Shown piece after piece: positions 44,264 through 47,626 of a stretch of 64,000 nucleotides of DNA (its first letter is position 1; each line of letters begins with the position of its first letter). The translations under genes and the position numbers were made by a program. Source of the DNA: Rhodobiaceae bacterium (GTDB taxonomy: Bacteria > Pseudomonadota > Alphaproteobacteria > Parvibaculales > Parvibaculaceae); contig CP030277.1 in assembly GCA_003330885.1 (NCBI GenBank), forward strand, positions 2,046,001 through 2,110,000, given 5' to 3'. The notes beneath the pieces were generated by a model. It was given only the letters and a program-made list of their open reading frames with translations. It ran no database searches and was not told where the DNA came from.

Positions 44264-45178
44264 ATGGGATTGCTTGAAGGAAAAGTCGTACTCGTGACCG
44301 GTGCGGCAAACGGCATCGGGAAAGAATGTGCGCTGATCGCCGCACGCCAGGGAGCCAAGGTCGTCGTGAACGATCTGGGCGGTAGCGTCGCTGGCGGGGA
44401 CGAAGGCAGCGCCGGTCCTGCGCAACAGGTAGCAGATGAGATCAAGGCAGCCGGTGGTGAAGCCGTCGTCAACTCAGACAGCGTCGCTATCAAAAGTGGT
44501 GCTGAGAACATGATCGCACAGGCCATGGATGAGTTTGGCGCTCTCCATACGATCATCAGCCCCGCAGGCATTTTGCGCGATGGCATGTTCCATAAAATGC
44601 CAGATGAAGATTGGGACTCTGTTCTGGAGGTCCACTTGAAGGGCTCCTACAACATGACCCGCGCTTCTGTGGAGCATTTCCGCAAACAGGAAGAAGGCAA
44701 CTATGTGCTCTTTACTTCCACGTCGGGCCTTATTGGCAATATCGGGCAGGCAAACTATGCCGCCGCGAAGATGGGCATTGTCGGCCTCTCCCGCATCATC
44801 GCCATGGAAGGCGCTATGAAGAACGTTCGCTCGAACGTCATTGCTCCTTTTGCCTGGACTCGGATGATTGCAACCATCCCTGTGAAGGACGAAGCATCCG
44901 CACAACGCGTAGACCGCATGAAAAACGCCATGCGGGCCGACCAGGTGGCAAACTTCGCCGTGGGCCTCTCCGCACCTGAGTGTGATGTGAGTGGCCAGAT
45001 CTTCTCCGTCCGCGGCAATGAAGTCTTCCTCTTCAGCCAACCCCGCCCTGTCCGTGCCGTTACGCGTCTCGAAGGTTGGACACCGGAGACACTTCTGTCG
45101 CACGGTTTCCCGGCAATGAAGGGCGACATGACCGATCTCGGTAACACTGCCTCAGTGTTCACCTGGGAACCGATCTAA
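44264..45178 (+). CDS. SDR-family oxidoreductase (MFE-2/17-beta-HSD4-like)
   Basis: A 304-residue short-chain dehydrogenase: GKVVLVTGAANGIGKECALIAA, VVVNDLGGSVAGGDEGS (the NDLGG plus insertion typical of the 3-hydroxyacyl-CoA dehydrogenase unit of peroxisomal MFE-2 relatives), Ser and Tyr-x3-Lys (NYAAAKMG). ATG 44264 has GGGAGA before it. It may act on a hydroxyacyl-CoA; this is inference from the insertion, and no MaoC or thiolase gene is adjacent. Confidence 0.87.
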   Translation: MGLLEGKVVLVTGAANGIGKECALIAARQGAKVVVNDLGGSVAGGDEGSAGPAQQVADEIKAAGGEAVVNSDSVAIKSGAENMIAQAMDEFGALHTIISPAGILRDGMFHKMPDEDWDSVLEVHLKGSYNMTRASVEHFRKQEEGNYVLFTSTSGLIGNIGQANYAAAKMGIVGLSRIIAMEGAMKNVRSNVIAPFAWTRMIATIPVKDEASAQRVDRMKNAMRADQVANFAVGLSAPECDVSGQIFSVRGNEVFLFSQPRPVRAVTRLEGWTPETLLSHGFPAMKGDMTDLGNTASVFTWEPI

Positions 45179-45200
45179 GCAACGCCTATGAGGATTGAGA

Positions 45201-45230
45201 AAGCCGCCGACACTGAAGTGTCGGCGGCTT
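45201..45230. terminator. bidirectional hairpin terminator
   Basis: AAGCCGCCGACACT, a GA loop, AGTGTCGGCGGCTT: a perfect 14-bp stem between the rightward SDR gene and the leftward small secreted protein gene. Rightward it is followed by ATTACGTTTT; leftward by TCTCAATCCTC. A strong stem with weak T-tract, placed to end both convergent transcripts. Confidence 0.8.
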
Positions 45231-45238
45231 ATTACGTT

Positions 45239-45571
45239 TTAGCGGAAGTATCGCTGCACTTCGCTGTAGCTTCGATCTGAACTATAGCGGAAGCGTGGAG
45301 GAAGCTGCTGGTGGAAAGCCAGAAGCTCCGGATTGTCTGTTGAACGAATCTGCCGCTCAACATCACCAAGCGTACAACCACCGCCAACGTTACTCACAGT
45401 TGAACCTGAGTTAATGCCAGCACAGACCCGTTCTGCTTCGCGCACAATCTGCGCATGAGTATTGTTGAGGGACTGAAGCGCTGCTTCAGATGCCGTTGAC
45501 GCCGCCTGCGCAGCACCAAGGGGAAGGGCCACTGCAGCTACACCTACTAGAGCAATCAAAGTCTTTTTCAT
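45239..45571 (-). CDS. small secreted UrcA-like protein, copy 1
   Basis: A 110-residue exported protein. From ATG 45571 it starts MKKTLIALVGVAAVALPLGAAQA, a typical signal peptide. The mature part (LQSLNNTHAQIVREAERVCA ... GGCTLGDVERQIRSTDNPELLAFHQQLP) has two cysteines and matches the layout of alphaproteobacterial UrcA-type proteins (LN-x-R-VC ... C-x-A-V-x-x-N-P-x-L). It is a tandem paralogue of the next gene. The AAGGAGA ribosome site is enclosed in a perfect hairpin (45573-45603), so translation is probably gated. Confidence 0.75.
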   Translation of the reverse strand: MKKTLIALVGVAAVALPLGAAQAASTASEAALQSLNNTHAQIVREAERVCAGINSGSTVSNVGGGCTLGDVERQIRSTDNPELLAFHQQLPPRFRYSSDRSYSEVQRYFR

Positions 45572-45572
45572 A

Positions 45573-45603
45573 ACTATCTCCTTTTGTCTGAGCAGGAGAT
45601 AGT
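45573..45603 (-). promoter_or_regulatory. hairpin masking the ribosome binding site
   Basis: On the minus strand ACTATCTCCT, an 11-base loop, then AGGAGATAGT, which contains the ribosome site and ends one base before ATG 45571. The two arms are perfect 10-bp complements, so in the mRNA the site is fully paired. This is the form of a translational switch, for example an RNA thermometer or a hairpin opened by a protein or small RNA. Confidence 0.75.
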
Positions 45604-45713
45604 CATCCGTAGTCAGATTACTCATCACATCCTGATCACACACAGAGATGTCACGCCTCGTGATTGAGGCCACACAAAATTCAAAGCCCTCAACACCTTC
45701 TAAGACGCTCCAC

Positions 45714-46052
45714 CTATTGGAAGTAGCGCTCTACCTGCCCAAAGCTGCGCTCTGAGCTGTAGCGGACGCGCAGCGGCAGAGACTGATGGAAGGTGAGCAT
45801 ATTCGCGTCGTCTACTGACCGGACATGACGCTCAACATCACCGACAATGCACCCATTGCTCTGATTGCGACGCACGACACCCGTAAACGGCCCAACAGAA
45901 CAGACACGCTGAGCCTGACGCACAATCCGTGTGTGCTCATTATTGAGAGACCTTAACTGATCAGTAGAGAAGTCGGACGCTGCCTGCACGCTACTGAACG
46001 GCAGCACGAGGGACGCAAAGGCAACAAATCCGGCGAGAGTGTGTTTCATCAT
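45714..46052 (-). CDS. small secreted UrcA-like protein, copy 2
   Basis: A 112-residue exported protein with signal peptide (HTLAGFVAFASLVLPFSSVQA) and the same mature layout as copy 1: LRSLNNEHTRIVRQAQRVCS, GCIVGDVERHVRSVDDANML and a C-terminal VRYSSERSFGQVERYF that ends copy 1 as well. The two genes clearly arose by duplication. ATG 46052 and 46049 are both possible; GGAG spacing favours 46049. Its leader shows no strong ribosome-site hairpin, unlike copy 1. Divergent from the amidase gene. Confidence 0.75.
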   Translation of the reverse strand: MMKHTLAGFVAFASLVLPFSSVQAASDFSTDQLRSLNNEHTRIVRQAQRVCSVGPFTGVVRRNQSNGCIVGDVERHVRSVDDANMLTFHQSLPLRVRYSSERSFGQVERYFQ

Positions 46053-46198
46053 CTTTCTCCTTCAAGAAACAATAGAAACTCTACTCCCCCTGCGGACGCA
46101 CGATCATTAAGTCATCGTAACATCGCGCAAATGTGACTTATTGCGATCCACACCCTAAGCTTCCGCAAAACTAAAAGACGAAATATGAGGAGAGAGCC

Positions 46199-47626
46199 GT
46201 GGGCAGTTTCAAAGAATATGAAGATCATGATGCGCTGGGACTGGCAGAGCGTGTCGCCAAGGGTGACGTGACCGCAACAGAATTGCTGGATGAAGCTATT
46301 GAGCGCACCGAAGCAATCAACCCGAAAATCAACGCTGTGGTCCTGAAGCACTATGACGAAGCCCGCAAGCTCATATCAGACGGCCTGCCGGACGGCACCT
46401 TCAAAGGCGTGCCGTTCCTCCTGAAAGACCTCCACCTGCTTTGGGAGGGAACTGTCACTACCTACGGATCAGGCGCCTTCGAAGGCTATGTGGCCGATCA
46501 CAATACAACCCTGACCGACCGCTACCTCGACGCCGGTCTGGTCCTGTTCGGCAAAACCAACTCTCCGGAACTGGGCCTGACAGGCACAACCGAACCACGT
46601 CTCTATGGCCCCACACACAATCCGTGGAACTTGGAGCATTCACCGGGCGGTTCCTCAGGCGGAGCCGCAGCGGCGGTTGCAGCCGGTATACTCCCGTTAG
46701 CGAATGCATCAGATGGCGGCGGCTCCATTCGCATTCCAGCATCCGCCTGCGGCCTGTTCGGGCTAAAGCCAACGAGAGGACGCACACCAGCTGGTCCCGA
46801 CAGGGGCGAGGGTTGGGCAGGCATGTCCATCAGCCATTGCGTATCCAAAACCGTGCGCGACAGCGCCGCTCTGCTTGACGCCACGACAGGCATGGCTGCA
46901 GGCGACCCTTATCTACCACCCGAACCCGACCGGCCTTTCTTGGCGGAAGTCGGCGCACCAACAGGCAAACTACGCATCGCGTTTAACACCAAACGAAGCG
47001 ACGGCACTAAGCCAGATCCTGAAGTTGAAAAATCCATTCTGGACACGGCAAAGCTCTGCGAGTCCCTCGGCCATGAAGTCGTAGAGGAAGCACCAACAAT
47101 AGATCCCGTTGCCATGGGCAATGCACAAGCGACCATTATCGGCGCCAATGTCGCACTGACCCTGGAGCAACGGGGAGAAGCGCTGGGGCGAAACCTCACG
47201 GAAAATGACGTGGAGCACGTTACCTGGCTGATGGCCAGCGCCGCTAAAGATCGCACAAGCACCGACTATGCCGCCGCCACCCTCTTCATCCATCAGATGG
47301 GGCGCATGATGGGCATGTTCATGCAGAGCCACGACATCTATCTCTGCCCCGTTCTCGGGACACCGCCGCCAAAGCTCGGTGTTCTCGACATGATGACGGA
47401 CGATGTGGGCACCTATCTCGCGAACCTGGGAAAGATCATGCCATACGCTGGGCTCTTCAACATGACCGGCCAACCTTCCATGTCCGTCCCGCTTCATTGG
47501 ACTGCAGACGGCCTGCCCGTTGGCGTCATGTTCACTGGGCGCTTCGGCGAGGACGCAACCTTGATCAGACTTGCCTCGCAGCTGGAAGAAGCAAAGCCAT
47601 GGCGGGACAGAAGACCACAAGCGTAA
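46199..47626 (+). CDS. amidase (amidase signature family)
   Basis: A 475-residue Ser-cisSer-Lys hydrolase: catalytic Lys in PFLLKDLH and the signature GGSSGGAAAAVAAGILPLANASD with GSIRIPASACGLFGLKPT. Members cleave amides, 6-aminohexanoate dimers or indoleacetamide; no GatA-specific context is present. The start is GTG 46199 after GAGGAGAG. Convergent with a NUDIX gene. The GatCAB subunit A is an unlikely alternative since no gatC/gatB is beside it. Confidence 0.9.
   Translation: MGSFKEYEDHDALGLAERVAKGDVTATELLDEAIERTEAINPKINAVVLKHYDEARKLISDGLPDGTFKGVPFLLKDLHLLWEGTVTTYGSGAFEGYVADHNTTLTDRYLDAGLVLFGKTNSPELGLTGTTEPRLYGPTHNPWNLEHSPGGSSGGAAAAVAAGILPLANASDGGGSIRIPASACGLFGLKPTRGRTPAGPDRGEGWAGMSISHCVSKTVRDSAALLDATTGMAAGDPYLPPEPDRPFLAEVGAPTGKLRIAFNTKRSDGTKPDPEVEKSILDTAKLCESLGHEVVEEAPTIDPVAMGNAQATIIGANVALTLEQRGEALGRNLTENDVEHVTWLMASAAKDRTSTDYAAATLFIHQMGRMMGMFMQSHDIYLCPVLGTPPPKLGVLDMMTDDVGTYLANLGKIMPYAGLFNMTGQPSMSVPLHWTADGLPVGVMFTGRFGEDATLIRLASQLEEAKPWRDRRPQA

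Follow-up and report, generated by a model that had tools for sequence, protein, structure and literature searches.

The stretch of DNA analysed here (the window, 64 000 nt from a Rhodobiaceae bacterium, positions 2,046,001 to 2,110,000 of contig CP030277.1) carries on its minus strand two tandem paralogous genes. The upstream one, P2 (45714–46052), has homologues in all seven genomes searched in the genus, its own included. The downstream one, P1 (45239–45571), encodes a weakly UrcA-like protein of 110 aa with a putative signal peptide and a pair of cysteines, both recognized by eye. The list of open reading frames starts P1 further upstream; the start at 45571 is the one that lines up with the starts of the homologues. 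From this start codon on, P1 aligned with the P2 family; the cysteine pair is common to both, and all 20 columns invariant among nine aligned homologues are also present in P1. The retention of these columns suggests that P1 is, or recently was, expressed.

We observed no match to Pfam or NCBIfam at E ≤ 0.001 for either protein. With the threshold relaxed to E ≤ 10, P1 had three sub-threshold Pfam matches (the best to DUF4148, E 0.026) and none to the UrcA family TIGR04433; P2 matched TIGR04433 with E 0.013 and 15.6 bits, below the cut-off of 25, so that membership in this family was established for neither. Matches to TIGR04433 at E ≤ 1 were found in 5/9 aligned homologues (best E 0.0083). 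The label ‘UrcA-like’ proposed in the sequence-only reading thus has a sub-threshold basis in P2 and some of its homologues and none in P1 itself.

The Shine-Dalgarno sequence (SD) of P1 lies within the 3′ arm of an inverted repeat. On the minus strand the P1 leader reads ATGACTATCTCCT-GCTCAGACAAA-AGGAGATAGTTATG: the 5′ (anti-SD) arm ACTATCTCCT at 45594–45603, a loop of 11 nt (GCTCAGACAAA, 45583–45593) and the 3′ arm AGGAGATAGT at 45573–45582, with the ATG of P1 at 45571. The two arms, 11 nt apart, are complementary at 10 of 10 positions, so the perfect 10-bp hairpin on the P1 SD claimed earlier is correct in coordinates and geometry. In an inverted-repeat search each arm reached 13 nt at 92% (45570–45582 and 45594–45606), the odd pair being G-U; the full helix of 13 pairs (45570–45606) therefore includes the AU of the P1 AUG. 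It starts ∼107 nt past the P2 stop codon, and the arm half-sites are separated, centre to centre, by 21 bp, close to two turns of the DNA helix.

In RNAfold predictions the MFE and centroid structures agree on one 13-pair helix. The 140-nt stretch around the hairpin has z = −3.65, none of 200 shuffled sequences being equally stable, and the isolated 13-pair hairpin has −16.8 kcal/mol at 37°C. Freeing the P1 SD would cost 7.5–11.0 kcal/mol at 37°C, depending on the flanks included, versus 3.3 kcal/mol for P2, whose SD is covered merely by a 6-bp stem; the statement that the tandem paralogue lacks such a structure is borne out. In the −140 to +60 frame the best SD-free fold was calculated to be 11.8 kcal/mol worse than the MFE state. 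By prediction, then, the SD is paired in a stable local helix before P1, as expected of an RBS-sequestering structure. The hairpin would occlude the P1 SD and part of the AUG, and as modelled it appears to be of a known kind, the SD-occluding hairpin.

P1 was sought in the seven genus genomes and in 40 family genomes, the same 40 serving for the order, with its own genome and genus included. No P1 orthologue was found outside its own genome among the 40 family genomes; 30 of the 40 had a match at E ≤ 0.001, and the best matches besides P1 were P2-type proteins of at most 55% identity. A wider scan of genome contigs returned 595 pattern stretches, none of them from a relative, with near records possibly omitted; the same kind of scan made with P2 met one locus only, an indication of its limited reach. 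When we folded eight homologous leaders (that of P2 in the same genome included), we saw by eye none with an upstream anti-SD arm like that of P1, and in the MFE structures of two distant leaders (L007 and L008) bases of the SD region were paired with downstream sequence.

Within the genus, two copies at E ≤ 0.001 were observed only in the window's genome and in G001. The extra copy in G001 (L010, beside L004) is 41% identical to P1. It lies upstream of the P2 orthologue of that genome, whereas P1 is downstream of P2, and for this reason the second tandem copy in G001 looks like a duplicate separate from P1.

The perfect symmetry of the repeat and the 21-bp spacing of its half-sites would suit a DNA operator bound by a dimeric regulator. 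The whole repeat, however, occurs at one site in the 3.86-Mb genome at up to three mismatches, so the further copies expected of a regulon operator were not seen; nor was the repeat seen in the eight homologous leaders, and there is no promoter-like site nearby. We regard a role as operator as highly improbable, although a regulator specific to this one site would be compatible with these results.

In the sequence-only reading the geometry was taken to be that of a translational switch, responding to temperature, to a ligand or to a protein. The occlusion of the SD and of part of the start codon is indeed what is seen in RNA thermometers and translational riboswitches, and the pairing of both in a hairpin is shared with thermometers of the ROSE, FourU and hsp17 types. 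In other respects the P1 hairpin differs from these. Its helix is free of mismatches and bulges. For the isolated hairpin the calculated pairing of the SD is at least ∼97% at 45°C and still at least 93% at 65°C, i.e. the hairpin is predicted to be closed at physiological temperatures; opening in the growth temperature range, as an RNA thermometer would show, was not observed in these predictions. Of described thermometers, one has an internal bulge (PMC4477652, in the part of the text available) and another operates between 20 and 45°C (from an excerpt of PMC4288164). A riboswitch or other two-state leader found no better footing: no alternative partner of at least 6 nt exists for either arm within −350 to +333, and the SD-free fold is the much costlier one. 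A known riboswitch or leader family was likewise rejected, since the four Rfam matches at E up to 10 included none at gathering score, the one overlapping the leader being to a eukaryotic snoRNA family (E 0.21). The single genome copy and the lack of a P1 orthologue in the family genomes also speak against a switch. These observations do not support a regulated switch, which we consider quite improbable, although a protein or ligand specific to this one hairpin would be compatible with them. A stable helix without alternative partner, and with an SD-free fold so much less stable, bears the marks of a static block, and the opening signal looked for in the earlier reading need not exist.

To see how unusual such a hairpin is, we compared SD-bearing starts from the window (36), from 38 blind 20-kb stretches of its genome (361) and from 20 blind stretches of the congener G006 (195), 592 in all; gene starts in every sample were called by a crude script and some are wrong. 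Stems of at least 10 bp over the SD were found at 1/36 starts in the window (P1 itself), 0/361 in the blind stretches of the same genome and 0/195 in G006, and shuffling each window leader 60 times produced none. The expectation from shuffles was 0.17 for the 592 starts (∼2.8 × 10−4 per start), which is ∼0.01 in the window and, extrapolated from 361 starts in 760 kb to 3.86 Mb, ∼0.5 per genome. Reversal of the upstream 60 nt gave 1 such stem in the window's genome and 0 in G006, a total of 1/592 for the reversed-leader control. The P1 hairpin is thus rare locally, yet with ∼0.5 expected per genome and one among the reversed leaders, selection is unproven; a single hairpin of this kind in a genome this large is compatible with chance.

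The distribution of SD-freeing energies, calculated in the −45 to +20 frame, gives a similar picture: P1 has 10.9 kcal/mol versus a median of 2.8 and a 95th percentile of 8.4 for the blind starts of its genome, among which 4/361 are as occluded as P1 or more. A first sample had 4/232 starts with stems of at least 9 bp, but it included the window and two stretches picked for known hits. In the blind samples such stems were present at 3/361 and 1/195 starts for the window's genome and G006, with 0.27 and 0.13 expected from shuffles; reversed leaders gave 2 and 1, so the genome as a whole shows no established excess of SD hairpins. The pattern CTCCT-N3-20-AGGAG-N4-9-ATG has 9 sites in the genome versus 5 for a control pattern.

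Two other hairpins of this sort were observed on the plus strand of contig C1 of the same genome. One (∼831618–831647; L063:1425–1503) has 13 pairs and covers the SD of a gene for a DUF6687 protein (PF20392), with 16.5 kcal/mol needed to free it. The gene was found at E ≤ 1e-60 in 4/7 genus genomes, with its leader kept (86% mean column identity) and a GAAA loop in 3/4 genomes. In the 4 sequences 88.5% of cells are paired, at most 61.5% when the structure is slid; no pair changed on both sides, and 500/500 shuffles do as well, so that covariation was not shown. From this comparison of leaders, maintenance of an SD hairpin is more credible for the DUF6687 gene than for P1. The other (∼3816763–3816793; L067), with arms GCTCCCGTC and GACGGGAGC, covers the SD of a gene for an enoyl-CoA hydratase; on visual comparison it is intact in 4/7 genus genomes (own included), altered at the base of the stem in one and was not seen in two.

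Whether the hairpin exists as RNA depends on where transcription begins. The terminator scan detected nothing on the minus strand between P2 and P1, and a scan limited to sigma-70-type promoters found no promoter-like site in 45150–46250, the region upstream of P2 included. A perfect 14-bp terminator-like hairpin (45201–45230; terminator scan, reported for the plus strand, and repeat search) stands 3′ of both P1 and a plus-strand SDR gene. In two relatives (L003 and L006) the SDR gene has a comparable hairpin next to it, which by eye follows directly, within tens of bases, on the P2 orthologue; P1 therefore occupies that gap. Since neither a terminator-like nor a promoter-like site was detected between the genes and a terminator-like hairpin follows P1, the 5′ arm is probably transcribed within a P2–P1 message.

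Another view of the same region is that the 5′ arm lies outside the main transcript, P1 being transcribed from a start inside the hairpin with a short leader and a free SD, and the repeat having no role in RNA. P1 does look like a maintained gene, and its likely expression sits badly with strong silencing unless the hairpin is opened or the transcript begins inside it. Short leaders are common in Alphaproteobacteria, and ACTATCTC resembles a Caulobacter −10 box. Against such a start, the scan described above found no promoter-like site (though none before P2 either), no −35 element is seen by eye at the right distance, and an exact TTAC-N6-TTAA, the UzcR-like motif discussed below, is absent from the 250 nt before P1. 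We consider this arrangement unlikely.

P2 and P1 point the same way and no terminator-like site was detected between them, so the hairpin could also protect the 3′ end of a processed P2 mRNA or direct processing, any effect on P1 being secondary. The 3′ arm, however, is exactly the SD with its usual spacing, and the helix begins well past the P2 stop codon; we find such a role very doubtful.

Ribosomes arriving from upstream could in principle open the helix. The P2 stop codon is 142 nt from the P1 start; in the six gene pairs tested in PMC10666635, a distance of ∼20 nt was already enough to remove nearly all coupling by reinitiation, and by that measure P2 is too far away. An RNA-unfolding model of translational coupling is described in the accessible text of PMC12548453, along with several coupled downstream genes silenced by a structure covering the RBS. 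The operons described there likewise have RBS-occluding hairpins, but ribosomes translating P2 would stop short of the helix, since that gene ends upstream of the hairpin; at P1, unlike in those operons, only candidate short ORFs cross it. One, of 10 codons (45574–45606, minus strand, from the list of starts), is out of frame, spans the whole helix and has a stop codon that leaves 2 nt to the P1 AUG, a distance suited to coupling; no SD is visible before it by eye and its own AUG sits in the stem base. The other is an in-frame N-terminal extension of P1 from an ATG at 45625 (45572–45625, minus strand, from the ORF list), preceded by AGGA and without counterpart in the aligned homologues; this start, if used, would also give an N-terminally extended protein. 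By a crude count, similar uORFs ending near the start occur at 96/361 sampled starts and in-frame upstream ATGs at 59/361. As comparable ORFs are this frequent, we consider it improbable that ribosomes on either ORF unfold the hairpin.

The sequence GTTAC-N6-TTAA upstream of P2 (46107–46121, minus strand, motif search) occurs once in the window versus 0.05 expected. It is present before P2 and four P2 orthologues (5/8 homologous loci), ∼72–79 nt upstream of the matched start. A similar sequence, CATTAC-N6-TTAA, is the UzcR site described for urcA of Caulobacter (PMC8963506), and a regulator like UzcR may therefore control P2. Like UrcA (TIGR04433), part of the UzcRS metal response in Caulobacter (PMC8963506), the proteins here are of a small, predicted secreted type. 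P2 has the UzcR-like site upstream and the sub-threshold family match; P1 has no exact site of this kind and no family match at E ≤ 10. Control of Caulobacter urcA is described there as transcriptional, unlike a hairpin at the SD of P1.

Taken together, we favour, with close to even confidence, a static hairpin in the intercistronic part of the P2–P1 mRNA that hides the SD and part of the start codon of P1, so that P1 would be translated poorly in comparison with P2. P1 is a duplicate of P2, seen in a single searched genome and placed between P2 and the terminator-like hairpin. The P2–P1 message would carry the 5′ arm, and the very stable helix would keep the SD and part of the P1 AUG covered. 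Translation of P1 would then be low relative to that of P2, the effect being that of a fixed brake with no sensor, possibly never selected. In this model the young duplicate is most likely held back by a fixed structure that may have arisen by accident. A more elaborate scheme, in our estimate a very slight possibility, would make P1 the second cistron of an urcA-like operon after duplication, with its start locked by the hairpin and opened by ribosomes on the 10-codon leader ORF, giving unequal and conditional amounts of the two paralogues, both possibly metal-responsive.

With 4/361 sampled starts calculated to be at least as occluded as that of P1, caution is due before an SD hairpin is taken for a switch. 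Should the hairpin indeed reduce translation of P1, the locus would be a case of a young operon duplicate given an expression level different from that of its paralogue by local mRNA structure.
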